Source: a virus
DNA: 64,000 nucleotides
Virus record (IMG/VR): IMGVR_UViG_3300030329_005371
Location: 38,631 to 102,630 of that record
Strand: one strand, 5' to 3'
Shown here: one piece after another, positions 1,711 through 35,606 of the stretch
Position numbering within the stretch: position 1 is the first letter of the stretch
How the letters are laid out: the number at the start of each line of letters is the position of its first letter
Program-made: the position numbers and the translations under genes
The notes under the pieces: generated by a model
What the model saw: the letters and a program-made list of their open reading frames with translations, nothing else
The model's database searches: none
Told to the model about the DNA's origin: nothing

Positions 1711-2475
1711 TTGCCACATATTTCATATTCGGAACTCAAAGATTGGGTAACTTGCGCGTTTTATCATAAACTTACGCGTATTGATAAGCTCAAGGGATTT
1801 AAAGGAAACGAGTTTACCGCATTCGGATCAGCTATTCACGCTGTATGCGAGAAAAAACTATTAAAAGAGGACATTGACGATGAAAGATTTTTTGTTCGTA
1901 GCTTTAATGATCATATTACTGACCTCGGAGACGATGTGCCTGTGGATAGCGGATTGGTTGATCAAATGGTGGGACAGGGGAAAGCTTTACTACCAGAAAT
2001 CGAAGAAGCAGTCGCAGAATACTTCGGAGAATACAACGTCGAAGCAGTAGAATTAAAGCTTTATGAACCAATATCAGGCGAAGAAGACTATATGTTCAAA
2101 GGCTATATCGATGCGATTGTCTCTACGCCAGATGGAAAGGTTCATATTTTTGATTGGAAGACTTGTTCTTGGGGCTGGGACTCTCGCCGTCGCAGCGAGA
2201 AGATGACAACTTATCAACTTACACTCTATAAGCATTTCTTTGCTCAAAAAATGGAGGTCGATCCAAAGAGCATCGAAACTCACTTTGCTCTTCTTAAAAG
2301 AACAGCAAAGAAAAATAGGGTAGAACTATTTAGGGTGACGAGCGGCCCAAGAAAAACCGAAAACGCTCTTAAATTATTGCACAAAGCATTATACAATATC
2401 AAAAATAAGCGATACATTAAGAACAGGCTCTCATGTGAGCGATGTACGTTTAGGCACACAAAAGAATGTCCATGA
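1711..2475 (+). CDS. PD-(D/E)XK nuclease with Fe-S cysteine set (Cas4/RecB-like)
   Basis: A 254-residue protein of the RecB/Cas4-like nuclease superfamily. Visible motifs are F-G-S-A-I-H (38-43, motif I His43), G-Y-I-D (131-134, metal-binding Asp134), F-D-W-K-T (147-151, Asp148 and Lys150) and a Q-L-T-L-Y helix (169-173). Cys15 plus Cys242, Cys245 and Cys253 form the one-plus-three pattern that holds a 4Fe-4S cluster in Cas4 and AddB. The start is TTG with a strong GGAGG site, right behind a consensus promoter. Expected activity is DNA exonuclease or endonuclease in phage replication, recombination or host DNA breakdown. No helicase domain is present. Confidence 0.85.
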   Translation: MPHISYSELKDWVTCAFYHKLTRIDKLKGFKGNEFTAFGSAIHAVCEKKLLKEDIDDERFFVRSFNDHITDLGDDVPVDSGLVDQMVGQGKALLPEIEEAVAEYFGEYNVEAVELKLYEPISGEEDYMFKGYIDAIVSTPDGKVHIFDWKTCSWGWDSRRRSEKMTTYQLTLYKHFFAQKMEVDPKSIETHFALLKRTAKKNRVELFRVTSGPRKTENALKLLHKALYNIKNKRYIKNRLSCERCTFRHTKECP

Positions 2476-2482
2476 GGAATAA

Positions 2483-3769
2483 ATGACAAAAAAGAAAATA
2501 ATGGTCATCGCAGACCATCCACTATCGCCTTCCGGCGTTGGTACCCAGACAAGGTACTTTATTGAAGCTCTCTTAAACACTGATAGATATAAATTTATTT
2601 GTTTAGGAGGAGCATTACAGCATCAGGATTATAGACCGCAGAGAGTCGCTCCATTTGAAGATGATTGGGTAATATATCCAGTCGAAGGATATGGTAATGA
2701 CGAAATGATTCGCTCTATTCTTCGCAAAGAAAAGCCTGACGTGCTTTGGTTTATGACAGATCCCAGGTTCTATGGATGGCTGTGGGAAATTGAAAATGAA
2801 GTAAGAGTAAATGTCCCCATGATCTATTATCATGTGTGGGATAATTTTCCGGCTCCTTATTATAATGCTCCATTTTATAATTCTAATGATAAAGTTGTAG
2901 CTATTTCAAAAGTCACACACGAAATTGTTAAAACTGTCGCGCCTGATGTGGCGTGTGAATATCTACCACACGCAGTTGATCCTCAATATTTTAAGCCTGC
3001 GAAAGGTGGCGAAGCCGAAAGAAAAGTCGAAGCTGTAAAGAAAGCATTGCTAGAGAAAAATAGTGCGATTACTGCCAATCCCAAAAAGAAGATATTTTTC
3101 TGGAACAGCAGAAACGCTCGCAGAAAGCAAAGCGGTACGGTGATTTGGTGGTTTAAGGAATTTCTAGATGAAGTAGGGCACGATAAAGCATGCTTGTTAA
3201 TGCATACAGATGCTAGAGATCCTCACGGGCAAGACTTGCCCCATCTTATTGAGCACTTGGGAGTCAATGAAGGTCAGATATTTTTATCTACCAACAAGGT
3301 CCCTGCCGAAGATATGGCGGCTATGTACAACGCATGTGATTATACAATTAATATTTCAGATGCGGAAGGTTTTGGTCTCTCCGCATTAGAGTCATTAAGT
3401 TGTGGTGTGCCTGTTATAGTAACCATGACAGGAGGTCTTCAAGAGCAAGTAACAGATGGCAAAGACTGGTTTGGCTATGGAATCCAGCCCGCCTCTAGAT
3501 CAATTATAGGCTCCCTTCAGGTTCCATATATTTATGAAGATCGTATTTCTAAAGAAGATTTTATATCCACTCTCAAAAAGGCTCTTAATTTAAGTCCAAA
3601 GGCATACAAGAATTTGTCCAAAAAGGGACTTAAACATGTGGAGGAGAATTACAATTTTCAAACTTATAAAAAGAGATGGATAGAAATTATGGATAATTTA
3701 ATTGAAGAACATGGCTCTTGGAGCGAAAGAAAAAATTATACTCGCTGGCATTTAATGGAGGTAGCGTGA
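2483..3769 (+). CDS. Glycosyltransferase, GT4-like (GT-B fold)
   Basis: A 428-residue protein and the first gene of the glycan island. The N-terminus has a Rossmann strand followed by a Ser/Gly-rich loop (P-S-G-V-G-T-Q-T), and the C-terminal half has D-A-E-G-F-G-L-S-A-L-E-S, the E-x7-E type donor-binding motif of retaining GT4 enzymes, followed by C-G-V-P-V-I. It should move a sugar from a nucleotide donor onto an acceptor in the cytoplasm; donor and acceptor cannot be read from the sequence. A GAGGA site precedes the ATG. Its stop overlaps the GTG start of the next glycosyltransferase, so the two are probably co-translated. Confidence 0.88.
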   Translation: MTKKKIMVIADHPLSPSGVGTQTRYFIEALLNTDRYKFICLGGALQHQDYRPQRVAPFEDDWVIYPVEGYGNDEMIRSILRKEKPDVLWFMTDPRFYGWLWEIENEVRVNVPMIYYHVWDNFPAPYYNAPFYNSNDKVVAISKVTHEIVKTVAPDVACEYLPHAVDPQYFKPAKGGEAERKVEAVKKALLEKNSAITANPKKKIFFWNSRNARRKQSGTVIWWFKEFLDEVGHDKACLLMHTDARDPHGQDLPHLIEHLGVNEGQIFLSTNKVPAEDMAAMYNACDYTINISDAEGFGLSALESLSCGVPVIVTMTGGLQEQVTDGKDWFGYGIQPASRSIIGSLQVPYIYEDRISKEDFISTLKKALNLSPKAYKNLSKKGLKHVEENYNFQTYKKRWIEIMDNLIEEHGSWSERKNYTRWHLMEVA

Positions 3770-5016
3770 AAAAGAAAATTTTATTAAAAGGACCCCTTCT
3801 GACGCGTTCGGGTTATGGAGAACAAGCGCGCTTTGCGCTTAGAGCGCTCAGAAGTAAGCCAGACTTATTTGATGTCTATATACAGCCATTAAGATGGGGC
3901 GCCACATCTTGGTTATTTGAAGATAACGAAGAACGCGAGTGGATCGATCAAGCAATAGAAAAGACTATCGGGTTTATTCAGCAGGGGGGCCAATTTGACA
4001 TCTCTCTCCAGGTTACCATTCCTAATGAATGGGAAAAATTGGCTCCTTACAATGTAGGATATACTGCTGGTTTGGAGGCCACGCGAGTTCCTCCGGTATG
4101 GATAGAAAAGCTTAATTCAATGGATAAGGTGATTACGATCTCTTCTTTTTCAAAAGATATCTTTGAATCATCCACCTACGAAGGCACTCACTCTGAAACA
4201 GGCCAGCAAGTACAGCTAGTCCCCAACACACCAATTTCAGTAGTAGGCTATCCTGTAAAGACGCATTCTGCGACACCTCCGTTGGATTTAGATCTAAAGT
4301 ATGATTTTAATTTTCTCAGTATTGCTCAATTTGCTGTAAGAAAAAACATTGAGCAAACTATAAAATGGTTTATGCAAGAATTCCGTGATGATGAGGTTGG
4401 CTTAGTATTAAAAACTAATCTAGCGAAAAACTGTTTGATGGATCGAGAAGCTACCTTAAACAAGCTTAAGCAGCTTGTCTCGTCTCTAAGTGACGGCGCC
4501 AAATGTAAACTTTATTTATTACACGGAGATATGACCGATGAAGAGATTCATTCACTTTATTGTCATCCTAAATTAAAGGCTCTGATTGCGTTGCCTCATG
4601 GAGAAGGATTCGGGCTTCCTATATTTGAAGCAGCATATTCTGGCATGCCGATTGTTGCCACTGGGTGGTCTGGCCAGCTAGATTATCTGGTAGACGAAAA
4701 TAAAAAAGAGCAATTTTACAATGTAAGTTATGATATCCAACCTATTCAAGAAAAAGCTGTCTGGGACGGTGTGCTCATGAAAGAAGCGATGTGGGCATAT
4801 GCCAAGGAGTCTTCCGCTAAAACACAGATGAGAAGATGTTACGAGGAAGTAATAGAAAATACTGGCTTAGCCGCAAAAAGTTGTGCGTATGCTGAACAAT
4901 TGAAAGAGCGCTTCAGTGAAGAAAAAATGTTTTCATTATTTACCGAAGCAGTACACCGGCAAGATCCTGAAATTGATGCGTGGTTAGCTAAACTTGAAGC
5001 AATTGAAGAGTTATGA
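3766..5016 (+). CDS. Glycosyltransferase, GT4-like (GT-B fold)
   Basis: The preferred start is GTG at 3766, with GGAGG at 3755-3759 and a start that overlaps the preceding stop; an upstream ATG at 3718 would add 16 residues lying inside the preceding gene. The protein is about 416 residues. Near the N-terminus G-P-L-L-T-R-S-G-Y-G-E-Q resembles the acceptor-side glycine loop of GT-B enzymes. The C-terminal half has H-G-E-G-F-G-L-P-I-F-E-A and S-G-M-P-I-V-A-T, the donor-binding E-x7-E motif. It is a second, diverged GT4-like enzyme beside the first. Donor and acceptor are unknown. Confidence 0.87.
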   Translation: MKKKILLKGPLLTRSGYGEQARFALRALRSKPDLFDVYIQPLRWGATSWLFEDNEEREWIDQAIEKTIGFIQQGGQFDISLQVTIPNEWEKLAPYNVGYTAGLEATRVPPVWIEKLNSMDKVITISSFSKDIFESSTYEGTHSETGQQVQLVPNTPISVVGYPVKTHSATPPLDLDLKYDFNFLSIAQFAVRKNIEQTIKWFMQEFRDDEVGLVLKTNLAKNCLMDREATLNKLKQLVSSLSDGAKCKLYLLHGDMTDEEIHSLYCHPKLKALIALPHGEGFGLPIFEAAYSGMPIVATGWSGQLDYLVDENKKEQFYNVSYDIQPIQEKAVWDGVLMKEAMWAYAKESSAKTQMRRCYEEVIENTGLAAKSCAYAEQLKERFSEEKMFSLFTEAVHRQDPEIDAWLAKLEAIEEL

Positions 5017-6559: not shown

Positions 6560-7253
6560 CATTCTAACTGTGGCTAATGAAGATTATCGTTCTTTTTTGA
6601 TATTATTTGTTAATTCTCTTTTTGAATTTGGCAATTTAAGCGAAACTGAAAAGATATATGTATTCGATACAGGCCTTAGTCAAGAAACCCGTGATTATCT
6701 TTTGTGTTTTCCTAAGATAGAAATTCGAAATGCTGGATTTACAGCTCAATCAGACGCTATACATGATTCTGGATGGAAGCGCAATACTTATTCTAAGACT
6801 AAATTTTTGAAAGATATATTAACAAATACTCAACTTCCTACATTTATGATTGATGCCGATTGTATTTTTATTCAAGATTTTTTAGACTTGATAGATGAAA
6901 AGTGTGATATAATAGGATGTGAGCGACAACGAGAAGGATTTTCTAAATATATTGGCTCTTTTTTTGGAGCCATTAATGTTGAGCAATCAATTAAGTTTAT
7001 AGATTTGTGGATAAAAAATATTCAAATATTACAAGACACCACGGCGCTTAAACATTGTGAAAGCCCTGCTTTGGCTAAAACTATCGAGGAATATGATTTT
7101 AAAGTTCAAGACTTAAAAGAGCAAATAGTATCGGCGGTATTTCCTTCACAAGAATCACGCATAATACATCTTAAGTCTGATCACTATGCGCTGACAGTAC
7201 AAGATCGACTAAATCTTCAACATGCGCAAGAATTTGTAAAAAGGTACTTATAA
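6549..7253 (+). CDS. Putative GT-A fold glycosyltransferase (GT8-like)
   Basis: About 234 residues. The N-terminal strand I-L-T-V-A-N-E-D-Y and the segment T-F-M-I-D-A-D-C-I-F give a D-x-D motif (D-A-D) in the place where GT8 and related nucleotide-diphospho-sugar transferases bind metal and donor. A later segment, E-C-Q/R-x-G-F-S-K-Y-I-G-S-F-F-G-A-I-N, fits the acceptor side. ATG at 6549 is chosen over a TTG one codon earlier; it overlaps the previous gene by 11 bases. The stop overlaps the next start by one base. Family placement rests on the DxD motif and overall layout. Confidence 0.6.
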   Translation: MRHNILTVANEDYRSFLILFVNSLFEFGNLSETEKIYVFDTGLSQETRDYLLCFPKIEIRNAGFTAQSDAIHDSGWKRNTYSKTKFLKDILTNTQLPTFMIDADCIFIQDFLDLIDEKCDIIGCERQREGFSKYIGSFFGAINVEQSIKFIDLWIKNIQILQDTTALKHCESPALAKTIEEYDFKVQDLKEQIVSAVFPSQESRIIHLKSDHYALTVQDRLNLQHAQEFVKRYL

Positions 7254-7960
7254 TGTTATTGTCAGTAGTAATCTCAACGTATAATAGATCAGATGTACTG
7301 AAACAAAATTTAGATCACTTTAAGAATCAGACTGATATGGAATTCGAAATAGTGGTAGGTATTGATGGTTCGACCGACGATACAATACAAATGTTGAATT
7401 CTTATCAGGGCCCATTTAGTTTACGCTGGATCAATACCGGTGAAACTGAAAAATACTGTTTAGCAAAAGTTCGCAACATGGCTATTGTTGAAACTGTAGG
7501 ACAAGCCGTTGTTATTTTGGATGATGATAGCTTTCCGACTCCTGAGTTTATAGCAGCGCACAAAAGCTCTGCGCAAAGAGGAGTTATTACAGGTGGATAT
7601 AGAAACTCTCACGATCCTAAAGACTCGCTACATCCAAAGATGAAACGTACGCTTTTAAAATATGGAATCAATAAACTAAACCCAATCACTGAAAGAATAG
7701 TAGAAAATAATGCCTGTATGATGCGGTCAGATTTGATTGGCTGCGGCATGTTTTCTGAAAGATTTGAAGGATACGGCGGCTGTGGTCAAGAGTTTATATG
7801 GAGATTGGCCTATCAAGGCTACCAATATAAATTTAATCCCGAAGCAATGATCTATCACCACCGCGAATTCGAGGGAGACAATGGTCTAACAAGAGAGATA
7901 AAAGATCAACAGGCCATGGAGATGTCTAAAATGATTTATAAACACTGCGGGAATTTTTAA
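7253..7960 (+). CDS. Glycosyltransferase family 2 (GT-A fold)
   Basis: A 235-residue protein with the hallmarks of GT2: S-V-V-I-S-T-Y-N-R at residues 4-12, V-G-I-D-G-S-T-D-D-T for nucleotide binding, and V-I-L-D-D-D-S as the D-x-D metal site. A later C-G-Q-E-F-I-W-R segment fits the ED/QxxRW-like region near the catalytic base, and I-Y-H-H follows as in many GT2 proteins. It should transfer a sugar by inversion from a UDP-, GDP- or dTDP-sugar. No membrane helices, so it acts in the cytoplasm. It overlaps both neighbours by one base. Confidence 0.9.
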   Translation: MLLSVVISTYNRSDVLKQNLDHFKNQTDMEFEIVVGIDGSTDDTIQMLNSYQGPFSLRWINTGETEKYCLAKVRNMAIVETVGQAVVILDDDSFPTPEFIAAHKSSAQRGVITGGYRNSHDPKDSLHPKMKRTLLKYGINKLNPITERIVENNACMMRSDLIGCGMFSERFEGYGGCGQEFIWRLAYQGYQYKFNPEAMIYHHREFEGDNGLTREIKDQQAMEMSKMIYKHCGNF

Positions 7961-9051
7961 TGAACATTCCACTACTAGATTTAAAAAGACAATATCAAGC
8001 TATAAAAAAGGAGATTGTTCCCCTTGTGAATGAGATCATGGAATCTCAATGGTTTGTTAACGGCCCGCGCGTTAAAGAATTTGAAGAGAATTTTGCTAAT
8101 TTCTGCGGAGCATCTCATGCGGTTGGGTGCTCTTCGGGCACAGACGCGTTAATTATGGCACTAACAGCATTAGACATTGGCTGTGAGGACGAAGTAATCA
8201 CAGTGCCATTTACTTTTTTTGCCACTGTCGAAGCAATTATTAGACGAGGCGCCTCTCCTGTATTTGTTGATATTGAAGAAGAGACCTTTAATATTGATAC
8301 TTCACAAATTGAGGCGGCTATTACCCCTAATACTAAAGCTATTATTCCTGTTCACCTTTTTGGACAATGTTCAAATATGGAGGAGATTAGAAATATAGCA
8401 GCCAAGTATGATCTAAAAGTCATAGAAGATTCAGCACAAGCGGTAGGTGCGACATGGAAGTCCGACCGGGCTGGCTCAATGGGCACATTAGGGTGTTTTA
8501 GTTTTTTTCCTTCTAAGAATTTAGGCGCCTTCGGAGATGGAGGCATTGTTACTACTAATGATGAAGAGCTGTATGAGAAAATGTTGCGTACGCGTCAACA
8601 CGGCATTGATATGAAAAATCCTTATTATTATGAACACATTGGAGGAAACTTCAGACTTGATGCCTTACAAGCAGCTGTATTAAACGTAAAACTTAAGTAT
8701 ATTGAACAATGGCAAGCACAGCGCCATCAGAATGCGCTATATTATAACGAACGCCTGAAAGGGGTGATTACACCTCCGTCCTATGAATATGCTTATCATG
8801 TTTATAATCAGTATGTAATTCGTAGTTCTATGCGCGATAAATTAAAGCAAAAACTACATGATAATAATATTGGATGTTCCGTTTATTATCCTTATCCTAT
8901 ACACCTACAGCCTTGCGTGGAGATGCTTGGTTATAAAGCAGGTGATTTTCCTGTAACGGAGAAAGCTTGTTCTGAAGTATTGGCCCTTCCAATATTTCCC
9001 GAGCTAAGTCAAGCGGAATTAGATCGTGTTATCGAGGTGATAAACCAATGA
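7960..9051 (+). CDS. DegT/DnrJ/EryC1/StrS-family sugar aminotransferase
   Basis: A 363-residue PLP-dependent enzyme of normal family length. Landmarks are G-C-S-S-G-T-D-A-L (phosphate-binding, 56-64), V-H-L-F-G-Q-C (131-137), I-E-D-S-A-Q (155-160) and S-F-F-P-S-K-N-L-G (181-189), in which Lys186 is the Schiff-base lysine. It should transfer an amino group to a keto-sugar nucleotide. The spacing and sequence remind me of WbpE and GnnB, which aminate C3 of UDP-sugars. The next gene is a Gfo/Idh/MocA oxidoreductase that could provide the 3-keto substrate. The exact sugar is inference; assignment to the family is firm. Confidence 0.92.
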   Translation: MNIPLLDLKRQYQAIKKEIVPLVNEIMESQWFVNGPRVKEFEENFANFCGASHAVGCSSGTDALIMALTALDIGCEDEVITVPFTFFATVEAIIRRGASPVFVDIEEETFNIDTSQIEAAITPNTKAIIPVHLFGQCSNMEEIRNIAAKYDLKVIEDSAQAVGATWKSDRAGSMGTLGCFSFFPSKNLGAFGDGGIVTTNDEELYEKMLRTRQHGIDMKNPYYYEHIGGNFRLDALQAAVLNVKLKYIEQWQAQRHQNALYYNERLKGVITPPSYEYAYHVYNQYVIRSSMRDKLKQKLHDNNIGCSVYYPYPIHLQPCVEMLGYKAGDFPVTEKACSEVLALPIFPELSQAELDRVIEVINQ

Positions 9052-9932
9052 GAGTGGTTCTGGTTGGGTGTGGTTCTATGGGACAAAAGCATCTTAATGT
9101 GCTGGACTCTATTGATAATTTAGAAGTAGTGGGAGTTATTGATCCTACTTTTGAAAGAGAAGGTATTAATTTCAGCTCCATAGAACAATTTTTAGAAACA
9201 GAAGTTCCAGTTGATTTTGCCATCGTGGCAACTCCAACCAGTTATCATCACAAAAGTGCCATATCTCTTATTCATAATGGCATTCATGTATTGATTGAGA
9301 AACCAATCGCCCCCACTCTTCAAGAGGCAGAAGAGATTAGATACGCAGCTACCAAGCACAATGTTAAAGTAGCAGTGGGTCATATTGAAAGATTTAATCC
9401 GGCAATTGTTGCTTTACGTAACGATTTAAAAGAGCAAAATGTTTTGACCTGTAATATTAAGCGTATCAGCCCCTATCCTGCTCGTATTCAAGATATAGGG
9501 GTAAAGTTAGATTTAGGCATTCATGATGTAGATTTGGTGAGATATATAACCGGCAAAGAGGTTAAGAATTATCATTGTACTTCTTCCAAGGTAACACATC
9601 CAGATCGAGAAGACACAGCTTTATTTTATTTTCATTTAGGAAATACGTCCGCTACGATTTTAAACAGCTGGATGTCTCCTTTTCGGGAGAGAAAAATAGA
9701 TGTCATGACAGAAGAACATTATTATAAAATTGATTTGATGACACAAAGCGTGGCAAAATATTCCATTATGGAATCGAACAGCTATGGGATTACGGATTTA
9801 TATATTCAGCGTACAAATGCTCTACAGGACCAAACTATCGCATTTATAAATTTTATTGAAACGAATGATGCGGGAGATTTAGCGCAATTAGAAGATGCGA
9901 TGATTGCTTTGGGATATGTTTTAGGAGATTAA
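9048..9932 (+). CDS. Gfo/Idh/MocA-family sugar oxidoreductase
   Basis: A 294-residue protein. The N-terminal Rossmann loop is G-C-G-S-M-G (7-12); E-K-P-I-A at 84-88 has the family's catalytic lysine; V-G-H-I-E-R-F-N-P (109-117) and D-L-G-I-H-D-V-D (154-161) carry the substrate-side residues, including His158. The G-H-x-E-R-F-N-P string is one I associate with nucleotide-sugar 3-dehydrogenases (GnnA, WbpB and WlbA type). With the aminotransferase just before it, which it overlaps by four bases, it probably oxidises C3 of a UDP-sugar so that an amino group can be added. NAD is the expected cofactor. Confidence 0.88.
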   Translation: MRVVLVGCGSMGQKHLNVLDSIDNLEVVGVIDPTFEREGINFSSIEQFLETEVPVDFAIVATPTSYHHKSAISLIHNGIHVLIEKPIAPTLQEAEEIRYAATKHNVKVAVGHIERFNPAIVALRNDLKEQNVLTCNIKRISPYPARIQDIGVKLDLGIHDVDLVRYITGKEVKNYHCTSSKVTHPDREDTALFYFHLGNTSATILNSWMSPFRERKIDVMTEEHYYKIDLMTQSVAKYSIMESNSYGITDLYIQRTNALQDQTIAFINFIETNDAGDLAQLEDAMIALGYVLGD

Positions 9933-9933
9933 G

Positions 9934-10824
9934 ATGAAAGCCTGTATAAGTTATATTTCTTCGCGTACACGGTGTATTGAGTATAGCCTTAAATCGTTAT
10001 GGGATAATTTCAATTGTGATTACAATTATCCGGTATATGTAAATTATTTTGATGATATTTATGATAATTTGGATTTACGCTCTCACATTACAAGACACAA
10101 TGAGCAAAATGTTATCTTTTGTCAAGTCCCCTATCAAACTCCCTCTTTTTTGAAAGAGGAAGAACTTTTTTATAATCGTAAAGATTTGTGGTATGCTCGT
10201 GAAAGATTTTCAATTGCTCGTAAAGGATATCTTCATATGTGTCATTACACAAGCAATATGTATGGATATCCTAATACTAATTTACATGAATATGATTATG
10301 TGATGACGCATGATGACGAGGCCGGATATACTAAGAAAATGCCCTATAATCCTTTTGAAGTTATGGAAAAACAACCTTACTGGATCGGAGCATATGCGGT
10401 TAATCAACGCCTTAAAAATGGCCACCCCCATCAGGGACACTTAGATACTCGAACTGGACTGTGGGAGTTCACTCGTAATTTTCTTAAGGAAAACGAAATA
10501 GTTCCCGAATCTCCCGTTCTACAAGCGCTGCTAAAAGAAACGAAAGCAGAGAACCTATATCATTATATTAAATGGTGCGATACGTATGTTATTAAAACTG
10601 AAATATTCAGATCGGAATTGTGGAATAAGTGGATCACTGCGATTAATAATAATGGTGGCATATACAAATATCGATGGGGAGATAATGAGATTGTAACATT
10701 ATTTGCTTATATGAGCCAAGATAAAATATTTGATTTAAAAACAGTCCCAGAAGGCTACCATGATCAAGGAATGTTTAGAAATATTCAAGACTACGCACCT
10801 GGAGTTAAAGATGTCGCAAAATAA
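9934..10824 (+). CDS. GT15-like (KRE2/MNT1 type) mannosyltransferase homologue
   Basis: A 296-residue protein whose motif order matches the fungal GT15 alpha-1,2-mannosyltransferases as I recall them: Y-L-H-M-C-H-Y-T-S-N-M-Y (99-110), then Y-D-Y-V-M-T-H-D-D-E-A (120-130) where KRE2 has a metal-binding E-P-D, Y-N-P-F-E-V-M (138-144), I-F-R-S (224-227) and G-G-I-Y-K-Y-R-W-G-D (241-250), followed by a G-Y-H-D segment. Acidic residues are kept at the metal site. The Glu proposed as nucleophile in fungal enzymes seems to be Tyr218 here, so activity is not certain. No membrane anchor, unlike the Golgi enzymes. Likely donor: GDP-mannose (inference). Confidence 0.7.
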   Translation: MKACISYISSRTRCIEYSLKSLWDNFNCDYNYPVYVNYFDDIYDNLDLRSHITRHNEQNVIFCQVPYQTPSFLKEEELFYNRKDLWYARERFSIARKGYLHMCHYTSNMYGYPNTNLHEYDYVMTHDDEAGYTKKMPYNPFEVMEKQPYWIGAYAVNQRLKNGHPHQGHLDTRTGLWEFTRNFLKENEIVPESPVLQALLKETKAENLYHYIKWCDTYVIKTEIFRSELWNKWITAINNNGGIYKYRWGDNEIVTLFAYMSQDKIFDLKTVPEGYHDQGMFRNIQDYAPGVKDVAK

Positions 10825-11626
10825 TATTGAGAAAAAACTAAAGCGCGAATTAGAAGACATGCAGAATTTGTGGCTTAATGGATCTAATCCGTCTTTGTGG
10901 GGATGGGAAAAAGCCTTGGAGAATTTCAACAAGAGTCCATATCCCATAGACATAGATTATATCGAACGAAGATGTATTTTACCATGTATGACTCCCGCGT
11001 CCACTGTTTTAGATATCGGCACTAACGGAGGATTTTGGCTTGGCAGGATGAAAAACGCTAAAAGACTTATTGGAATAGATGCGCTCCCTGCGGCACATCT
11101 TGGATTTTGGAGCCGCATGACTAGAGATCTATCGCCAGAAGAATTAAAAAAGGTAGAATTCCATCAAATATCAGACTTTAAGTGTTCGTTCTTGGAGGAC
11201 AATAGTATAGATTACGTATTTTCATATGATGTATTTTGTCATATCTCATATTCCGGCGCCAAAGCTTATATAGAAAATTTAGCACCAAAACTTAAAAAAG
11301 GGGCAAATTGCTTTATTATGATTGCAGATTATGATAAATATATCTACAAAGATCGAGCACTTTTTATAGGTGACGCCGAAGATTCCAATAAATTTATTAA
11401 CTTAAATGGATTAAATAAGCTAGCTAAAGGCGCCGGATTCGATAGTGTAGATGAATTTGTCGCCGATTATGATGGCATTAAGAAACAATCTCCAGGTCGG
11501 TGGTATTTTTACAATACCGATCGGTTTGTAGAACTGATTGAGAATAATGACTATGAATTGATAAATCGCGATGTGGCAGTAATCGCCGATCCATTAAATC
11601 CCATAATTCACTTTAGGAAGCTATAA
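10811..11626 (+). CDS. SAM-dependent methyltransferase
   Basis: About 271 residues when started at the ATG at 10811, which has GGAG at 10801-10804; an ATG at 10760 would force a 65-base overlap and lacks a ribosome site. T-V-L-D-I-G-T-N-G-G-F-W is motif I for SAM binding, G-I-D-A-L-P motif II, and D-Y-V-F-S-Y-D-V-F motif IV, all of a class I Rossmann methyltransferase. The N-terminal W-x-W/N-P/K-rich part is not assigned. In this setting it probably O-methylates a sugar, though the acceptor is unknown. The stop and next start share one base. Confidence 0.8.
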   Translation: MSQNNIEKKLKRELEDMQNLWLNGSNPSLWGWEKALENFNKSPYPIDIDYIERRCILPCMTPASTVLDIGTNGGFWLGRMKNAKRLIGIDALPAAHLGFWSRMTRDLSPEELKKVEFHQISDFKCSFLEDNSIDYVFSYDVFCHISYSGAKAYIENLAPKLKKGANCFIMIADYDKYIYKDRALFIGDAEDSNKFINLNGLNKLAKGAGFDSVDEFVADYDGIKKQSPGRWYFYNTDRFVELIENNDYELINRDVAVIADPLNPIIHFRKL

Positions 11627-12288
11627 TGAAATCATCACTAAAAGATAGTATTTTGAGAAAATTTATTACCCCTGACTCTAATGGGAATACATTAATGACG
11701 CCGATTGTTATTTCTCGCGAAAAGAAAGTGCTTTATTTTCATATCGCCAAAACAGGAGGATCCTCTATCGCTCAGCTTCTCCGAAATAACAAAATGGATG
11801 ATATGGTGTTAGGAAACAAACGAGGCATTCATGAAGAAAAAGTTGCTTACTTTGAGGAAGTCCTGGAGGAGTGGGAGGAATATTATAAATTTACATTTGT
11901 GCGAAACAAGTTTGATCTTTTAATCTCGCTCTACAATTATGACAGACAGTTGAATGGAAAATATAGTCTTCCTAATCATGTAACTTTTGAAGAGTTTATC
12001 ACCAACCATGTTGGAGTCCAAGATCCTATTTATACACACTGGATTGACCAATATTATTTGACATACGCTGATGGCGAGTGTATGTATGATTTTGTTGGAA
12101 GATTCGAGAATTATAATGAAGATTTAAATACAGTCTGTAAACATCTCGGAATTGAAAATACCCAGATTCGCACAAATATAGGCAACTATGATCGCAGCAA
12201 AAAACAAGAATACTACACTGAAGATCTAAAACAAATTGTAAAGGATAGATTTTCTGACGAAATAGAGTGTTTTAATTGGTGGTATTAA
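11626..12288 (+). CDS. Sulfotransferase family protein
   Basis: A 220-residue protein. Y-F-H-I-A-K-T-G-G-S-S (37-47) is the 5'-phosphosulfate-binding loop of carbohydrate sulfotransferases, and F-T-F-V-R-N-K-F-D-L-L-I-S (89-101) is the 3'-phosphate-binding strand and helix with Arg93 and Ser101. Later Y-D-F-V-G-R-F-E-N-Y is also typical of the Sulfotransfer_2 type. It should move sulfate from PAPS to a sugar hydroxyl. No signal or membrane anchor, unlike Golgi homologues. PAPS must come from the host, since no APS kinase is seen here. A related copy lies at 17597. Confidence 0.86.
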   Translation: MKSSLKDSILRKFITPDSNGNTLMTPIVISREKKVLYFHIAKTGGSSIAQLLRNNKMDDMVLGNKRGIHEEKVAYFEEVLEEWEEYYKFTFVRNKFDLLISLYNYDRQLNGKYSLPNHVTFEEFITNHVGVQDPIYTHWIDQYYLTYADGECMYDFVGRFENYNEDLNTVCKHLGIENTQIRTNIGNYDRSKKQEYYTEDLKQIVKDRFSDEIECFNWWY

Positions 12289-13107
12289 ATGGGAAAATTT
12301 AAGACTTGGAAAGAATTTGATGAATCGCGAGAGCTTGGATCTCCTACGATACACATTAAACCACGCGACTACGCATTGAGACTGATGCGATATCAGATGT
12401 CCTGCAACCGCCCTAAAAGACCTGACCGGCCTGGAAGACCTCCTAGAAGTGTTGAAAGATTTGCTGCCCATGGTGAGGATGGTATACTAGAAGAGATATT
12501 TTTAAATCGCTTGAACATTCAAAAAGGAATAGCATGCGAATTCGGTGCTTGGGACGGTATAGCATATAGTAATACTTTTAATCTTGTAAAAAATTATGGT
12601 TGGAAATGCCACATGATCGAGGCCGATCCGCAAAAAGCAAAAGAACTGCGAAAAACCGCATCAAGACCAGGATTAGATATTATTCCATATGAATATCTTA
12701 TTGATTATAAATCAAGATTTATTGGAGATGATAAAACAAATCCATGTGAATCTGTTGCCAAACAAACTATCACCTTAGAATCATTTTTAGACGAAATTAA
12801 CATGCCTCACGATTTTGATCTTTTAAGTATTGATGTTGATGGGCCTGATTATCAAATATGGCAGTCTTTAGAAAATTATCATCCTAAAATTGTAATAATC
12901 GAAGCAAATAATAATGATTTAGATATAATCTACAAAGAAGGCGCAGATCATAGAATACATATGGAGGGGAGCACATCTTTTGGCCCTATGAAAAAACTTG
13001 GAGAGGCAAAAGGATATACTCTTTTGGTCTATACGGGGAATTTGATTTTTGCTAGAAATGATATTTATGAAATTTTAAAGCAATTTAAATCTGTGAGCTT
13101 GGATTGA
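12289..13107 (+). CDS. FkbM-like methyltransferase-fold protein
   Basis: A 272-residue protein with an unassigned basic, Pro-rich N-terminus (R-P-K-R-P-D-R-P-G-R-P near residues 41-51), then G-I-A-C-E-F-G-A-W-D-G-I as a SAM-binding loop, C-H-M-I-E-A-D-P as motif II and L-L-S-I-D-V-D-G-P-D-Y as the FkbM-type I-D-V-x-G strand. The gene at 16725 has the same E-F-G-A-W-D-G and S-I-D-I-D-G strings and is a clear paralogue. Both sit next to a sulfotransferase gene. A sugar O-methyltransferase role is likely but not shown. Start follows the previous stop directly. Confidence 0.72.
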   Translation: MGKFKTWKEFDESRELGSPTIHIKPRDYALRLMRYQMSCNRPKRPDRPGRPPRSVERFAAHGEDGILEEIFLNRLNIQKGIACEFGAWDGIAYSNTFNLVKNYGWKCHMIEADPQKAKELRKTASRPGLDIIPYEYLIDYKSRFIGDDKTNPCESVAKQTITLESFLDEINMPHDFDLLSIDVDGPDYQIWQSLENYHPKIVIIEANNNDLDIIYKEGADHRIHMEGSTSFGPMKKLGEAKGYTLLVYTGNLIFARNDIYEILKQFKSVSLD

Positions 13108-13113
13108 GATAAC

Positions 13114-13917
13114 ATGGAACAAAAGAAGATTAAAATTTTTAGTCCTGGCGCCTGTGGAACTAGATTTTTAACTGGTATTTTTTCGTATACCCATGGACAA
13201 GAGAGCCCAACAATTCAGGAAGAAATTCTAGAAGATATTTGTAATAAATTTAAATTTCGTTCCGCGGGCCCCACACACTCTCCTTACCACAAGATAGAAA
13301 GTAAAGATCTGAACACCTTACGAAAAATAATTTTTCTTTATGGAGATCCTCGAAATACTTTTTTATCCATTTGTAATAAACACGTTGATAGGAGGCATCG
13401 TCATTTGCTACATTTAGGCTATTTGGGCGATCGAAGCGAACTGGCAACATCTTTGAAGGACTTAGATACTATGCATCGAACGCACATTCCCACAAGATCG
13501 ATTCAATCATCGCGCGAAGCCATGACATTTCAGCGCATATCCCTTGGAGCCCCTAGGGTTACGGTCACTACCGGTTGTCCGGACTATCTGGAGGCTGTAG
13601 CTATTATCATCGAGCAAATTAAATCTTTTTCTGGCCTAGAAGATCACTTCAATTCGTGGCTTCATGCCGATTGTCCAATTCCTATAGCATTTGTAAAATA
13701 TGAATATTTGTTGGAAGTTTTTGATCAGCTTCTAGACTTTGTTGAAATTTATGAATCGCGAAGTTTAATAAAGGCGTATGCTAATGCTGAGTGGAAACCA
13801 AGAAGATCAAAACACGAAGAACACACACATTCGGATAAATTAAATAAATTGTTCGACTCTCTTTTGTCGATACAATCACAATTACCTCCATTTTGGATTA
13901 AGGAGCCAACAAAATGA
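13114..13917 (+). CDS. Possible sulfotransferase-like protein
   Basis: A 267-residue protein of uncertain family. Near the N-terminus I-F-S-P-G-A-C-G-T-R-F-L has the strand-loop-helix form of a phosphosulfate-binding loop, and I-I-F-L-Y-G-D-P-R-N-T-F-L-S-I could be the 3'-phosphate-binding strand, with Arg and Ser seven residues apart (compare R-N-P-W-D-R-Y-V-S in the copy at 17597). The rest, including a basic R-R-H-R-H stretch, is not recognised. If the reading is right it would be the third sulfotransferase of the island. A kinase-like or unknown P-loop protein is an alternative. Confidence 0.45.
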   Translation: MEQKKIKIFSPGACGTRFLTGIFSYTHGQESPTIQEEILEDICNKFKFRSAGPTHSPYHKIESKDLNTLRKIIFLYGDPRNTFLSICNKHVDRRHRHLLHLGYLGDRSELATSLKDLDTMHRTHIPTRSIQSSREAMTFQRISLGAPRVTVTTGCPDYLEAVAIIIEQIKSFSGLEDHFNSWLHADCPIPIAFVKYEYLLEVFDQLLDFVEIYESRSLIKAYANAEWKPRRSKHEEHTHSDKLNKLFDSLLSIQSQLPPFWIKEPTK

Positions 13918-14891
13918 AGATATTATTTATAGATCCAGCCGTCCATAGCGCGAAGTCAGCGACATACCACCATTATAATTATCTTTACGATCGATTAAAG
14001 ATGAGGCATTATCACGAAGTTTTTCTTTATAATAAAACTTCCTTTAATAACATTGGAGATGTTTTAATGGAGTGTCATCTAAACAATTTTAAGCCCGATA
14101 TTATTTTCTTTGGAATGGGATGGTTCGCACTAAAGCCTCCACACTTTTCAAAAAATCTACATTTAGACAAAGTAGATATACCAGCCGTAGGATTTTTATT
14201 TAAGCCCCAGAACTTTTTAGAAGAAAAAATAAAATTTTTAAAGAATAATAATTTTGATTTGATTATAAGCTCTGTTCCTCAATGCGATGAATACCAAGAA
14301 AAATCCGGAATTGAGTGTAAATTATTGTCCCAAGCCGGCGATCCGAGGACCTTTTATGATCGTAAAATTGACAAAATTTATGATATTGGCTTTAGCGGAG
14401 CATTACACGACAACCATATCTATGTAGACGGCGCTTTCAAGACCTTCAACATACGCTCACGCGCTCAAGATTTGTTGCGCGAACAAGAAGGCATCTCTGC
14501 TTTTTTAAATGGTAGCGACGATGTAGCGGCCCGCATACCAAGTTATGAGGAGTATGCCAAAAAGATAAGCCAATGTAAGATGTGGATAGCAACCCCCGCG
14601 CCCTTCGAGGAAATTACAGGTAGATATTATGAAATTGGAATGGCTAAGACGCTACTTTTTTGTAGTGAAGTGCCAGAAATTTACAAAGATGTGTTGCGTG
14701 ATGGTGAAAATTGTGTTATATTCTCTAATGATTTAAGTGATTTCTTAGATAAATTTTATTATTATCGAGATAACTGGGAAATTACGCAGCAAATTATTGA
14801 GAATTCCTATAAAGAATTTCACTCAGCCCACACTTGGGAACAGCGTGTAGAATTTTTATTAAGTTATTTTAAAGAGGTACTGGAAAAATAG
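13914..14891 (+). CDS. CgeB-like glycosyltransferase
   Basis: A 325-residue protein. The first half has a Rossmann-like start and a segment P-D-I-I-F-F-G-M-G-W-F-A. The second half matches the C-terminal domain of CgeB-type glycosyltransferases: D-I-G-F-S-G-A-L-H, Y-A-K-K-I-S-Q-C-K-M-W-I-A, a G-R-Y-Y-E-I-G-M-A-K-T-L-L-F donor helix with Glu, and D-G-E-N-C-V-I-F-S-N-D, then a helical tail. CgeB-like enzymes add sugars to proteins or glycans; the acceptor here is unknown. It starts four bases inside the preceding gene. Confidence 0.75.
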   Translation: MKILFIDPAVHSAKSATYHHYNYLYDRLKMRHYHEVFLYNKTSFNNIGDVLMECHLNNFKPDIIFFGMGWFALKPPHFSKNLHLDKVDIPAVGFLFKPQNFLEEKIKFLKNNNFDLIISSVPQCDEYQEKSGIECKLLSQAGDPRTFYDRKIDKIYDIGFSGALHDNHIYVDGAFKTFNIRSRAQDLLREQEGISAFLNGSDDVAARIPSYEEYAKKISQCKMWIATPAPFEEITGRYYEIGMAKTLLFCSEVPEIYKDVLRDGENCVIFSNDLSDFLDKFYYYRDNWEITQQIIENSYKEFHSAHTWEQRVEFLLSYFKEVLEK

Positions 14892-14892
14892 A

Positions 14893-16026
14893 ATGGAAAA
14901 AATAAGTGTTATAGGCATCGGAAAATTAGGATTATGTTTTGGTTTAAGCTTAGAAGCAGCCGGCTATCATGTAGTGGGGGTAGACATCAATGAGTCTTAT
15001 GTAGAAGCCATCAACAATAAAACATTTAATAGCTCTGAGCCAATGGTAGAAGAAATGCTAAAAAATAGCAAGCACTTTGAGGCCACCACTAACCTTAAAA
15101 AAGCAATACTCCACTCAGATATAATTTTTGTGATTGTAGCCACTCCTTCTTTATCAAATGGGCGTTATGACCATAAGCAAATAGAAGATCTTTGTGACAA
15201 CCTCATGGCCATGGGCCCTCAAGCCGCACCTAAGCATCTTATTATTAATTGTACTACGATGCCTCAATATTGCGAAAAGCTTCAAGAGCGAGTAGGGTTA
15301 AATAACTGGACTGTTTCTTATAATCCAGAGTTTATAGCCCAAGGAACAATTATAGCCAATCAAGAAAATCCAGATATGGTATTAATTGGAGAATCCAATG
15401 TGGACGTCGGAGATCGATTACAGAAGATATATGAGACGATGACACTAAACACTCCAAAAATTCACAGAATGACTCCCACCGAGGCTGAAATTACAAAAAT
15501 TGCTCTTAATTGTTTTTTAACAACGAAAATTTCTTATACTAATATGATCGGAGATATTGTATCGGCTTCGGGAGGAAGGCCTCAAGTTGTCCTTAATGCT
15601 GTGGGCGCAGACAGCCGCGTTGGCTCTAAGCTCACTCGTTATGGTTTTGGATATGGGGGGCCATGTTTCCCCCGAGATAATCGAGCCATTGGCATCTATG
15701 CTCAAGATATAGGCCTCCCAGCCGATATTAGTGCGGCCACCGACGAAATCAATATTAAACATTTGAGGTTTCAAATCAATGACTTTATAAGAAAGAATGA
15801 TAAACATACCAAGATCTCTTTTGGGGATTGTCCGGAACCAGACCGAGTAATATATGAGAACGTAACATATAAAAAAGGCTCTACCATGATTGAAGAGTCT
15901 CAACAATTAGCTTTTGCGGTGGCGCTAGCAGAGTGTGGATATGAAGTAAGGATTTATGATTGTCGAGAGGTAATAGAGAGCGTACGCGCCTTACATGGTG
16001 AGTTATTTGAATATGTGGAAATATAA
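14893..16026 (+). CDS. UDP-glucose/GDP-mannose dehydrogenase family protein
   Basis: A 377-residue protein, somewhat shorter than the usual 430. The N-terminus is an NAD Rossmann fold (G-I-G-K-L-G near residues 7-12). Y-N-P-E-F-I-A-Q-G is a family signature, T-K-I-A-L-N-C-F the central helix with Lys and Asn, and G-F-G-Y-G-G-P-C-F-P-R-D carries the catalytic cysteine. The C-terminal domain is reduced but present (K-K-G-S-T-M-I-E-E-S, then a strand and D-C-R). It should oxidise C6 of a UDP- or GDP-sugar to the uronic acid with two NAD. A second, shorter relative is at 23243. Substrate unknown. Confidence 0.88.
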   Translation: MEKISVIGIGKLGLCFGLSLEAAGYHVVGVDINESYVEAINNKTFNSSEPMVEEMLKNSKHFEATTNLKKAILHSDIIFVIVATPSLSNGRYDHKQIEDLCDNLMAMGPQAAPKHLIINCTTMPQYCEKLQERVGLNNWTVSYNPEFIAQGTIIANQENPDMVLIGESNVDVGDRLQKIYETMTLNTPKIHRMTPTEAEITKIALNCFLTTKISYTNMIGDIVSASGGRPQVVLNAVGADSRVGSKLTRYGFGYGGPCFPRDNRAIGIYAQDIGLPADISAATDEINIKHLRFQINDFIRKNDKHTKISFGDCPEPDRVIYENVTYKKGSTMIEESQQLAFAVALAECGYEVRIYDCREVIESVRALHGELFEYVEI

Positions 16027-16728: not shown

Positions 16729-17597
16729 ATAATTATGAAAATCTTTTAGATTATATTGGATATCACGACAAATGGCACGGCACCAGACAGTCTCAACGTA
16801 CTCCATATGTGTATAATCAGAATGAACACTTAACTAAAGAAATTTTAGATAGAATGAATATCGAAGAAGGTGTTTGTGTGGAATTTGGAGCATGGGACGG
16901 CCTTTATAATTCTAATACTAAGAACTTGATTGACAAAGGATGGCAAGCGATTCTAATCGAGCCAGATGAACAAAAATATACTGAATTAGTTAGAAATTTT
17001 AGTTATAATTCGAGAGTCCGCTGTGTAAAAAGTTTTGTAAATGATACAAATAGTCTTTTGGATGATATTCTCAGAAGAGAGAATGTAGAAGAAATCGATT
17101 TTTGTAGTATCGATATTGATGGTTTAGACCTGGACGTATTTGAGGCGGTCCAAGAATTTTTGCCAAAATTAGTGTGTATAGAGGGAGGGCAAGTAATTCA
17201 CCCTCGCGGCAACAGAATATCAACAGATATATCTAAAAATAATATTCAACAGAGCCTTAAAGTAATGGTACAGAGCTTTGAATATAAGGGATATAAGTTG
17301 CTATGTTCTTATCAGGACGCATTCTTTATTAAAAAAGAGTATTATCATTTATTTAATGTAGATGAAAATTTGATGAATCAGTATATTAATGGCTTGTTAG
17401 CTCTTCCGAGAATTCCATATATTAAGAAACTATTGGATGAAAATAATCTACACAATTCGGTCTTGGAATACGCGCTAAAAGATGTACCAGATTCTATTAC
17501 AGATTACGTTGCCAGAGCTACGAAAAAATACAAAATGAGATGGGTGGATGATTTTTATGCTAATATCCAAGGGCGCTTAGAGGAGTTACGAGAATAA
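16725..17597 (+). CDS. FkbM-like methyltransferase-fold protein
   Basis: A 290-residue paralogue of the protein at 12289. Shared strings include G-V-C-V-E-F-G-A-W-D-G, S-N-T-K-N-L, I-E-P-D-E-Q-K and C-S-I-D-I-D-G-L-D, in the same order. The C-terminal 60 residues, helical and charged, have no counterpart in the other copy. The SAM loop is intact and a sugar O-methyltransferase role is the simplest guess. The next gene is a sulfotransferase, so the pair mirrors the sulfotransferase plus FkbM-like pair at 11626-13107 in reversed order. Confidence 0.7.
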   Translation: MNNYENLLDYIGYHDKWHGTRQSQRTPYVYNQNEHLTKEILDRMNIEEGVCVEFGAWDGLYNSNTKNLIDKGWQAILIEPDEQKYTELVRNFSYNSRVRCVKSFVNDTNSLLDDILRRENVEEIDFCSIDIDGLDLDVFEAVQEFLPKLVCIEGGQVIHPRGNRISTDISKNNIQQSLKVMVQSFEYKGYKLLCSYQDAFFIKKEYYHLFNVDENLMNQYINGLLALPRIPYIKKLLDENNLHNSVLEYALKDVPDSITDYVARATKKYKMRWVDDFYANIQGRLEELRE

Positions 17598-18310
17598 TGT
17601 ATCGCGCTTTATATACTCATGTGCCAAAGACAGGAGGCACAAGCATCAAAGATGCGCTAGAATCTCATAAAGATAGTTTAGTAATCACAGAAAACAGTAG
17701 CGTAATCAAGGAACATCCTAATATGAATATGGAGCATATTCTGGTCCTAAACTTTAGAAAATCCAACTCAATGCGCAAAAAAGAAGCGATAGGAGAGAAG
17801 ACGTGGAACAATCTTTATAAATTTGCTTTTGTGAGAAATCCTTGGGATCGGTACGTATCTAATTGGCAGTGGCTAGCCCTGAGACTAGGCCAGCGCAATA
17901 GCTGGGTTATGAGAGGCTGGCGAGGTATTGATGGTCATGTTTCTTTTACAAGTTTTGTAAAACAAATGGAAGCATGTTATATCGATTCTCCAAAACTACA
18001 CCACTATCAACACGACAAGTGGCATATTCGCAATCAACTTCATCATCTTGTCGATTATGAAGGGAATATTATGATAGATTATGTCGGACGCTTTGAGAAT
18101 TTACAGGAAGAGTTTTCTACTATATGTAAGGAGATTGACTTAAAGATAGAGCTTCCTCATTTGAACTATTTTGGCCATCAAGAAGGTCTTCCTATGCAAA
18201 AAGAAAAGCCACATTATTCAACATATTATACGGATGAATTAGTAGAAATTGTTAGACAGCGCTCTCAGGCTGATATTGAAGCATTTGGTTACGAATTTGA
18301 GTGGAAATAA
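17597..18310 (+). CDS. Sulfotransferase family protein
   Basis: A 237-residue protein. Y-T-H-V-P-K-T-G-G-T-S (6-16) is the phosphosulfate-binding loop and F-A-F-V-R-N-P-W-D-R-Y-V-S-N-W (76-90) the 3'-phosphate site with Arg80 and Ser88; both match carbohydrate sulfotransferases more fully than the copy at 11626. Y-V-G-R-F-E-N-L follows, then a C-terminal Y-Y-T-D-E-L-V-E-I-V segment that both copies share. It should transfer sulfate from PAPS to a sugar hydroxyl. It overlaps the preceding gene by one base. No membrane anchor. Confidence 0.9.
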   Translation: MYRALYTHVPKTGGTSIKDALESHKDSLVITENSSVIKEHPNMNMEHILVLNFRKSNSMRKKEAIGEKTWNNLYKFAFVRNPWDRYVSNWQWLALRLGQRNSWVMRGWRGIDGHVSFTSFVKQMEACYIDSPKLHHYQHDKWHIRNQLHHLVDYEGNIMIDYVGRFENLQEEFSTICKEIDLKIELPHLNYFGHQEGLPMQKEKPHYSTYYTDELVEIVRQRSQADIEAFGYEFEWK

Positions 18311-19149
18311 TGAATAATTATGTATTAGTAAATATGACAAATGGTTTTGGAAACAATATTTTCCAATACACGGCCGCTCGACTTTTGGCGACTTTTCATA
18401 AGAAAGAAGTATATGCCAATCCTCCTTGGGAAGACTACTACGGAATCTCAGATCTGGAAAAATTAGGCATTAAGTTCAGTGAACAAAAAGCAAATAATGA
18501 GGTATTATATATAAGTGATCAGAACTATCTTCACGCCTTCGATGAAAAATATAGCGATAGAAATTTTATACTAACGGGATATTTTGAAGATTATAGATAT
18601 TATCTCAATCAACGAGAGATGATTAAAAACTGGTTTCCTAACGTACAGGAAAGAAGCAGAGATGATCTGGTTGTCCACATGCGCACAGGAGATAGACTAT
18701 TCATGAAGAATGAATTTTATAGTAAGCCCCGCGCAAAGAACTATTTAGAGGCGATTGAGCAATTTGATTTTAAAAACTTATATATTGTTACAGATATGCC
18801 TAAGTGGGACTATGTAACGGCAGATGAATTACAAGGTATGAAATTTCATCTTAATGTACCTGACAACGAGAGGGTGCCTATCCAAGAGTCCGTGAAGTTT
18901 TTTAATGAGTTTGTGGACGGCTTTAAGAAATACAGCCCAATTGTCGAAAGACGTAGTGTTGGAGAGGATTTTGATTTTATTAGAAGTTTTAAAAACATTT
19001 TATTTGAACACGGAACGCTTTCGTGGTGGGCTGCGTTTTTAAGTGACGCAGACAAAGTGGGCGTTTATGGTCCATGGCGCCCCTTTAAAGGAAATAAAAA
19101 TAAGAATTTAAGTCAAATACCTCTTGACAATTGGTTTAAATGGGAATAA
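18310..19149 (+). CDS. GT11-like (alpha-1,2-fucosyltransferase type) glycosyltransferase
   Basis: About 279 residues from the ATG at 18310, which overlaps the previous stop; a GTG three codons earlier is the alternative. N-G-F-G-N-N-I-F-Q-Y-T-A-A-R near the N-terminus matches the G-x-G-N-Q-x-F-Q-Y start of GT11 enzymes, L-V-V-H-M-R-T-G-D-R holds the H-x-R-x-G-D donor motif, and F-E-H-G-T-L-S-W-W-A-A-F-L matches the C-terminal S-W-W-A-A motif. The usual donor is GDP-L-fucose. GDP-L-galactose, the product of the epimerase at 20651, is a close analogue and may be the donor here (inference). Confidence 0.8.
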   Translation: MNNYVLVNMTNGFGNNIFQYTAARLLATFHKKEVYANPPWEDYYGISDLEKLGIKFSEQKANNEVLYISDQNYLHAFDEKYSDRNFILTGYFEDYRYYLNQREMIKNWFPNVQERSRDDLVVHMRTGDRLFMKNEFYSKPRAKNYLEAIEQFDFKNLYIVTDMPKWDYVTADELQGMKFHLNVPDNERVPIQESVKFFNEFVDGFKKYSPIVERRSVGEDFDFIRSFKNILFEHGTLSWWAAFLSDADKVGVYGPWRPFKGNKNKNLSQIPLDNWFKWE

Positions 19150-22355: not shown

Positions 22356-22363
22356 GGAATAAA

Positions 22364-35589: not shown

Positions 35590-35606
35590 AATAAGGAAAT
35601 TTGATA

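Follow-up and report, generated by a model that had tools for sequence, protein, structure and literature searches.

The gene at positions 9934–10824 of the window, by which we mean the whole stretch of 64,000 nucleotides analysed here (part of G000, a virus record of 102,630 bases), encodes a member of the GT15 sequence family, whose yeast enzymes add mannose to cell-wall proteins. The protein falls on a phage and bacterial side of this family that has attracted little notice, and several active-site residues of the yeast enzymes are changed in it. We propose that it is probably a retaining GT-A glycosyltransferase of the GT15 superfamily that is soluble and active, uses a GDP-hexose, has a rebuilt acceptor site and takes part in building a phage-directed glycan. 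GT15 is regarded as a family of fungi and as a target for antifungal agents. Among the genomes of plants, animals and fungi, one survey found PF01793 solely in fungi (PMC5225481), and GT15 was not found in those of green and red algae (PMC3797821). Our search of the open-licence literature gave no description of GT15, PF01793 or Kre2 in phages; being confined to such papers, it is weak evidence.

The sole Pfam-A match of the protein, even at E ≤ 10, is PF01793 (Glyco_transf_15) with 57 bits against a cut-off of 25 and an E-value of 2.7e-15; the alignment spans residues 12–258 of the protein and positions 68–304 of the profile. With the single sequence, phmmer against the PDB retrieved Kre2p (1s4n) at E 6.6e-6 and Ktr4p at 0.28, and a profile of the protein together with 24 phage relatives (A2, 25 sequences) matched the three solved GT15 sequences at E 1.4e-16, 2.7e-14 and 4.2e-14, with the next match at 0.18. 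The AlphaFold model, run on A2, reached a pLDDT of 93.6 and a pTM of 0.91. When it was compared with the PDB by Foldseek, ranks 1–11 were all GT15 enzymes (E 9.8e-15 to 5.5e-12, TMq 0.68–0.72); other GT-A families appeared at E 3e-6 or worse with TMq of at most 0.47. Profile, profile search and predicted fold thus bear out the earlier note, which had called the protein a GT15 homologue and had suggested a profile search and a structure prediction as checks. The four motifs it had listed occur in the order given, HMCHYTSNMY (101–110), YDYxxxxDDE (120–129), YNPF (137–140) and GGIYKYRWGD (241–250), and align with HMCRYQSGFF, EYDWYWRVEPD, YDVF and GGFFYERWGD of Kre2p. A chance resemblance of motifs is rejected on the profile and fold evidence. 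The 296-residue chain begins at the first strand (residues 3–9) with no hydrophobic segment ahead; the N-terminal membrane anchor of Kre2/Mnt1, a type II Golgi membrane protein, is missing. No PHROGs or NCBIfam model matched the protein, tblastn against 50,697 phage records and 72,556 plasmids returned nothing, and Foldseek against viral models gave only remote matches, the best being a giant-virus protein at TM 0.61.

Relatives are present on 38 further viral contigs, which form three clades, and on one Omnitrophota chromosome. Scans of IMG/VR yielded 28 and later 34 distinct contigs with relatives at 32–66% identity; a scan with clade 2 and Omnitrophota gained two remoter contigs, whose profile reached a total of four (clade 3). 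Clade 1, the kin of the window, comprises 30 contigs and clades 2 and 3 four each. The PF01793 cut-off was passed by all 16 relatives first tested independently and by four more records, and the three clade-3 members scored reached 102 to 123 bits. Against the PDB, the profiles of clade 2 plus Omnitrophota (E 3.8e-22) and of clade 3 (E 3.4e-30) find only GT15; tblastn of clade 3 against the 50,697 phage records matched nothing. Among 84,980 bacterial and archaeal species, scanned with patterns built from clades 1 and 2 that may miss remoter bacterial members, a single locus was found on an Omnitrophota contig, and a match over the cut-off occurs in one of 384 Omnitrophota genomes. The protein of this locus (L032, 9944–11641) joins a GT15 domain scoring 95 bits to a methyltransferase domain. 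Translations read from the contig include DnaK, tryptophan and histidine synthesis and two-component proteins, and we therefore regard it as bacterial chromosome. Another Omnitrophota candidate (L068) was dropped, as it scored 20 bits, under the cut-off, and resembles a different, DUF616-like protein. In the Omnitrophota stretch L109–L110 (about 1 to 26,100) a frame is open across the entire first 20 kb (6,666 codons); this giant gene apparently continues into the adjoining stretch and ends ahead of the glycan cluster.

Roles of active-site residues were taken from the Ktr4p–GDP structure (PMC4546622) and from modelling of CaMnt1 (PMC11077754) and transferred via alignments. Kre2 Arg130 contacts guanine (PMC11077754, PMC4546622), Kre2 Asp161, corresponding to Ktr4 Asp173, contacts N1 and N2 of guanine (PMC4546622), Kre2 Tyr220 is the catalytic tyrosine and Kre2 Asp361 binds O4 and O6 of the donor sugar (PMC11077754). 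Judged by alignment, the phage protein retains the catalytic tyrosine (Tyr99), the acidic metal ligand (Asp127), the aspartate of RWGD (Asp250) and both guanine contacts (Arg11 and Asp40), and these five residues are invariant throughout clade 1. Met223 (Met102) and the RWGD arginine Arg358 (Arg247) are also kept in the clade, and Glu247 is present as Asp127. Other positions have changed. Arg245, which bridges two carboxylates and contacts O3 and O4 of the donor, is Thr125 in the window and Thr, Ser, Val, Ile, Cys or His in clade 1; clades 2 and 3 and Omnitrophota have Arg. Kre2 Glu329 pairs with Tyr218, as the earlier note had correctly remarked, and the position is Tyr, Phe or Trp across clade 1, in which Asn327 has become Asp. 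The metal ligand His388 is replaced by Asp277 in the window and by varied residues in relatives, in a part of the alignment that is weak and where a nearby His is possible; clade 3 keeps His. Clade 2 and Omnitrophota retain Arg245 and Asn327 and carry Asn or Thr for Glu329, and in clade 3 L102 and L103 keep Arg245, Asn327, Glu329 and His388 and show a canonical DTD where fungi have EPD. On these alignments the change from Glu to Tyr belongs to a series of graded changes through the family. Due to the loss of Arg245, Asn327, Glu329 and His388 in clade 1, donor, metal use or rate may differ from those of the fungal enzymes. The name mannosyltransferase, which the earlier note had attached to the homologue, exceeds the evidence, because Arg245 and His388, which shape the mannose and metal sites of Kre2, and Glu329 are not kept; nor should the protein be named a Kre2-type alpha-1,2-mannosyltransferase, since several features of this type were looked for and are missing. 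Towards the acceptor, the clade-1 proteins share a conserved segment (QRLKNGHPHQGHLDTR in the window) at a place where the fungal sequences are shorter, which is consistent with a different acceptor. One phage (L064, with L066 the same) carries two GT15-like genes with one gene between them (7986–8891 and 9614–10699), and in the second of these Phe replaces the catalytic Tyr220.

Around the gene, between about 2.5 and 24 kb of the window, sugar genes form a 20-kb set that encodes glycosyltransferases, an aminotransferase, sugar dehydrogenases, methyltransferases, sulfotransferases and epimerases (Table 1). In most of the 30 clade-1 loci the order nuclease, GT4, GT4, DegT, GFO/IDH, GT15, Glyco_trans_1_2 and GT11-like gene recurs, with further genes after the second GT4 and ahead of the GT11-like gene. 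The Glyco_trans_1_2 partner is found in 28 of these loci as well as in clade 2 and Omnitrophota, often directly after the GT15 gene. A PDB search with the GT11-like protein returned nothing. About ten other GT15 loci have homologues of the GDP-mannose 3,5-epimerase (57–82% in phage loci, 43–44% in the Omnitrophota cluster), and GDP-mannose 4,6-dehydratase homologues accompany other GT15 loci, with one such homologue near each of L103, L106 and L107 of clade 3. A GDP-hexose donor is supported, if not proved, by the epimerase of the window and these homologues. The family 2 glycosyltransferase of the window has its counterpart at 14630–15289 of L032, and its 60% identity, compared with 36% between the GT15 proteins, suggests exchange between phage and bacterial glycan clusters. 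An NAD synthase-type gene is located within the glycan cluster (19872–20654 in the window, 12941–13714 in L003) and is kept in several related phages.

Table 1 Features of the window discussed in the text; residue equivalences are by alignment.
Feature	Coordinates	Strand	Remark
PD-(D/E)XK nuclease	1711–2475	+	Left border of glycan cluster; in 21/30 clade-1 loci
Two glycosyl transferases group 1	2483–5016	+	2483–3769 and 3718–5016
Family 2 glycosyltransferase	7253–7960	+	60% identity to Omnitrophota-cluster protein
DegT/DnrJ/EryC1 sugar aminotransferase	7960–9051	+
GFO/IDH/MocA sugar dehydrogenase	9048–9932	+	Directly upstream of GT15 gene
GT15-superfamily (PF01793) GT-A glycosyltransferase	9934–10824	+	296 aa, ATG start
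Arg11	9964–9966	+	Equivalent of Kre2 Arg130
Asp40	10051–10053	+	Equivalent of Kre2 Asp161/Ktr4 Asp173
GYLHMCHYTS (98–107)	10225–10254	+	Tyr99 = Kre2 Tyr220, Met102 = Met223
DDE (127–129)	10312–10320	+	Metal-binding acid; replaces EPD 247–249
Tyr218	10585–10587	+	Kre2 has Glu329
GGIYKYRWGD (241–250)	10654–10683	+	Asp250 = Kre2 Asp361
Methyltransferase	10760–11626	+
Sulfotransferase	11626–12288	+
FkbM methyltransferase	12289–13107	+
Sulfotransferase	13114–13917	+	Weak match
Glyco_trans_1_2 glycosyltransferase	13914–14891	+	Most constant GT15 partner
Nucleotide-sugar 6-dehydrogenase	14893–16026	+
Sulfotransfer_2 sulfotransferase	17597–18310	+
Possible GT11-like protein	18301–19149	+	Below cut-off; kept in 25/30 clade-1 loci
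GDP-mannose 3,5-epimerase	20651–21661	+	PDB 2c59, E 4.1e-89
SDR epimerase, second	22334–23233	+
UDPG/GDP-Man dehydrogenase-like ORF, second	23243–24091	+
Baseplate wedge subunit	35601–37397	+	Indicates contractile-tail phage

That the gene resides in a phage, as had been claimed from the letters alone, agrees with the baseplate wedge protein of the record itself and with T4 Gp23 capsid and terminase genes in related records. T4 Gp23 was detected in 5 and terminase in 9 of 14 GT15-bearing records tested, and on these genes the GT15-bearing records are tailed phages. Neither of the two was found in the window's own record, which is probably a fragment. Very large ORFs adjoin the tail genes of the window (28691–35197 with 2168 aa and 39354–49964 with 3536 aa), and the 2168-aa ORF has no match in PHROGs. 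Six ORFs share a near-identical leader, MKLLMENWRKYL (L004 at 13249, 14732, 15367, 18926 and 19587; L005 at 5618, in the record before the window), as if a shared N-terminal tag directed them to one place, perhaps the capsid. Positions 1–5000 of L004, the first 5 kb of the record, have 57% G+C, compared with about 40% in the rest, and include genes of MoxR-like ATPase and VWA type; this part may be acquired DNA or a chimeric join.

In an unrooted tree of 41 sequences and 298 columns, with three fungal rows from PDB alignments, a split supported at 100/99 separates fungi and phage clade 3 from Omnitrophota, clade 2 and clade 1, and each clade is one side of a strongly supported branch. The protein of the window lies deep in clade 1, where it groups with 27 other phage rows, then with clade 2 and then with Omnitrophota. 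With three phage clades and a bacterial chromosome, the family is wider than thought, as the earlier note had considered in suggesting an ancient family; its other suggestion, a gene taken from eukaryotes, is not supported for this gene, since the nearest kin are clade 2 and Omnitrophota and the fungi lie beyond the 100/99 branch, next to a different clade of phages. If a phage had recently taken a Kre2/Ktr gene from a fungus or another eukaryote and this gene had later diverged, it would suit the fact that the described GT15 members are fungal and that PF01793 was confined to fungi in the survey of plants, animals and fungi (PMC5225481). However, we consider such a recent transfer very improbable, because the position deep in clade 1 lends a recent fungus-to-phage gift no support, the fungi (three sequences) are found across the 100/99 branch, and a recent transfer would show much more than the approximately 20% identity to the solved fungal chains. 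On this unrooted tree with its three fungal rows, fungi and the phage/bacterial side may still have exchanged the gene long ago, in either direction. Tentatively, and as a scenario that we hold to be rather unlikely as a whole, GT15 might be an ancient family of phage and bacterial glycan enzymes with a canonical DxD, and the Kre2/Ktr enzymes of the fungal Golgi might have come from it via a clade-3-like phage or bacterial gene, and the clade-1 enzymes would then show that retaining transfer needs no Glu329, His388 or Arg245.

With regard to function, we hypothesize that this enzyme from the phage/bacterial branch of GT15 would bind a divalent metal and a GDP-hexose, which could be GDP-mannose or a derivative such as GDP-L-galactose or GDP-L-gulose, which the epimerase encoded in the cluster would produce. 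Tyr99 would do the job of Kre2 Tyr220 in sugar transfer, the sugar would go to a non-fungal acceptor in the rebuilt acceptor site, and neighbouring glycosyltransferases, methyltransferases and sulfotransferases might cooperate to yield a decorated glycan that ends on the virion or on the surface of the infected cell, a destination that we guess from gene context. The loss of Arg245, Glu329 and His388 equivalents in clade 1 could also indicate a degenerate protein that no longer catalyzes and has a structural or binding role among the proteins of the cluster. This is unlikely, given that Tyr99, Asp127 and Asp250 do not vary within clade 1, that the same glycosyltransferase partner is kept in 28 of 30 loci, and that dN/dS values of 0.09, 0.17 and 0.16 in three close unsaturated pairs (one each from clades 1, 2 and 3; relatives were used because the pair of the window is saturated) indicate purifying selection, as expected of a working protein. 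Moreover, clade 2 and Omnitrophota replace the Glu by Asn or Thr and yet keep Arg245, so that loss of the Glu is not confined to a lineage in decay. Slightly less probable again is a GT15-descended GT-A enzyme that now uses a UDP-sugar, e.g. UDP-glucuronate or UDP-galactose: the cluster also contains UDP-type nucleotide-sugar dehydrogenases, a UDP-GlcNAc 3-dehydrogenase-like protein and a PseC-like aminotransferase, and the donor could therefore be UDP-linked, but the Arg and Asp with which GT15 enzymes contact guanine are invariant and a GDP-mannose 3,5-epimerase is encoded in the same cluster. A retaining transfer from a GDP-hexose, our preferred reading, is compatible with a glycan that alters the host surface (O-antigen or capsule) rather than the virion. 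We give this destination a serious chance, if somewhat less than an even one, since the genes are similar in kind to those of O-antigen and capsule clusters in bacteria and a similar chromosomal set in Omnitrophota lies some 15–20 kb from ABC-2 type export genes; on the other hand, the phage cluster immediately precedes tail and baseplate genes, and our scan of the cluster proteins showed no export or ligase gene, which agrees no less well with virion decoration.

The mechanism of retaining glycosyltransferases is debated between a front-face attack helped by Tyr220 and a double displacement, and the phage/bacterial side of GT15 offers natural active-site variants for this question. Soluble, anchor-free phage GT15 proteins could be useful for crystallography, and they might give a clue to the origin of the fungal enzymes of mannan synthesis. 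Our findings further suggest that phages with GT15 genes handle GDP-hexoses themselves.

Compared with Kre2p/Mnt1p of S. cerevisiae (1s4n/1s4o/1s4p), the phage protein shares the profile and the fold (TM 0.72 over about 283 columns) as well as the catalytic Tyr, the metal-binding acid, the guanine-binding Arg and Asp and the GG..RWGD motif. It differs by an identity of only about 20%, by the replacement of Arg245, Asn327, Glu329 and His388, by the clade-1 segment QRLKNGHPHQGH where fungi are shorter, by the absence of a membrane anchor and by being encoded in a phage glycan cluster. Ktr4p of S. cerevisiae (5a07/5a08) and CmsA/Ktr4 of A. fumigatus (7boo/7bop) give the best Foldseek E-value (9.8e-15) and have the same layout of the GDP/Mn site; the low identity, the replaced residues, QRLKNGHPHQGH, the anchor and the gene context set them apart as for Kre2p, and Ktr4p has EPN in contrast to DDE of the phage protein. 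The members of phage clade 3 (L102, L103, L106 and L107) likewise belong to PF01793 and lie on phage contigs, whereas L102 and L103 keep Arg245, Glu329 and His388 and have the canonical form of DxD, and in the tree the clade joins the fungi. The Omnitrophota protein has a GT15 domain that branches beside phage clades 1 and 2, and its cluster shares the 60% identical family 2 glycosyltransferase and GDP-mannose 3,5-epimerase homologues; in contrast to the phage protein, it is fused to a methyltransferase, keeps Arg245 and is encoded on a bacterial chromosome.
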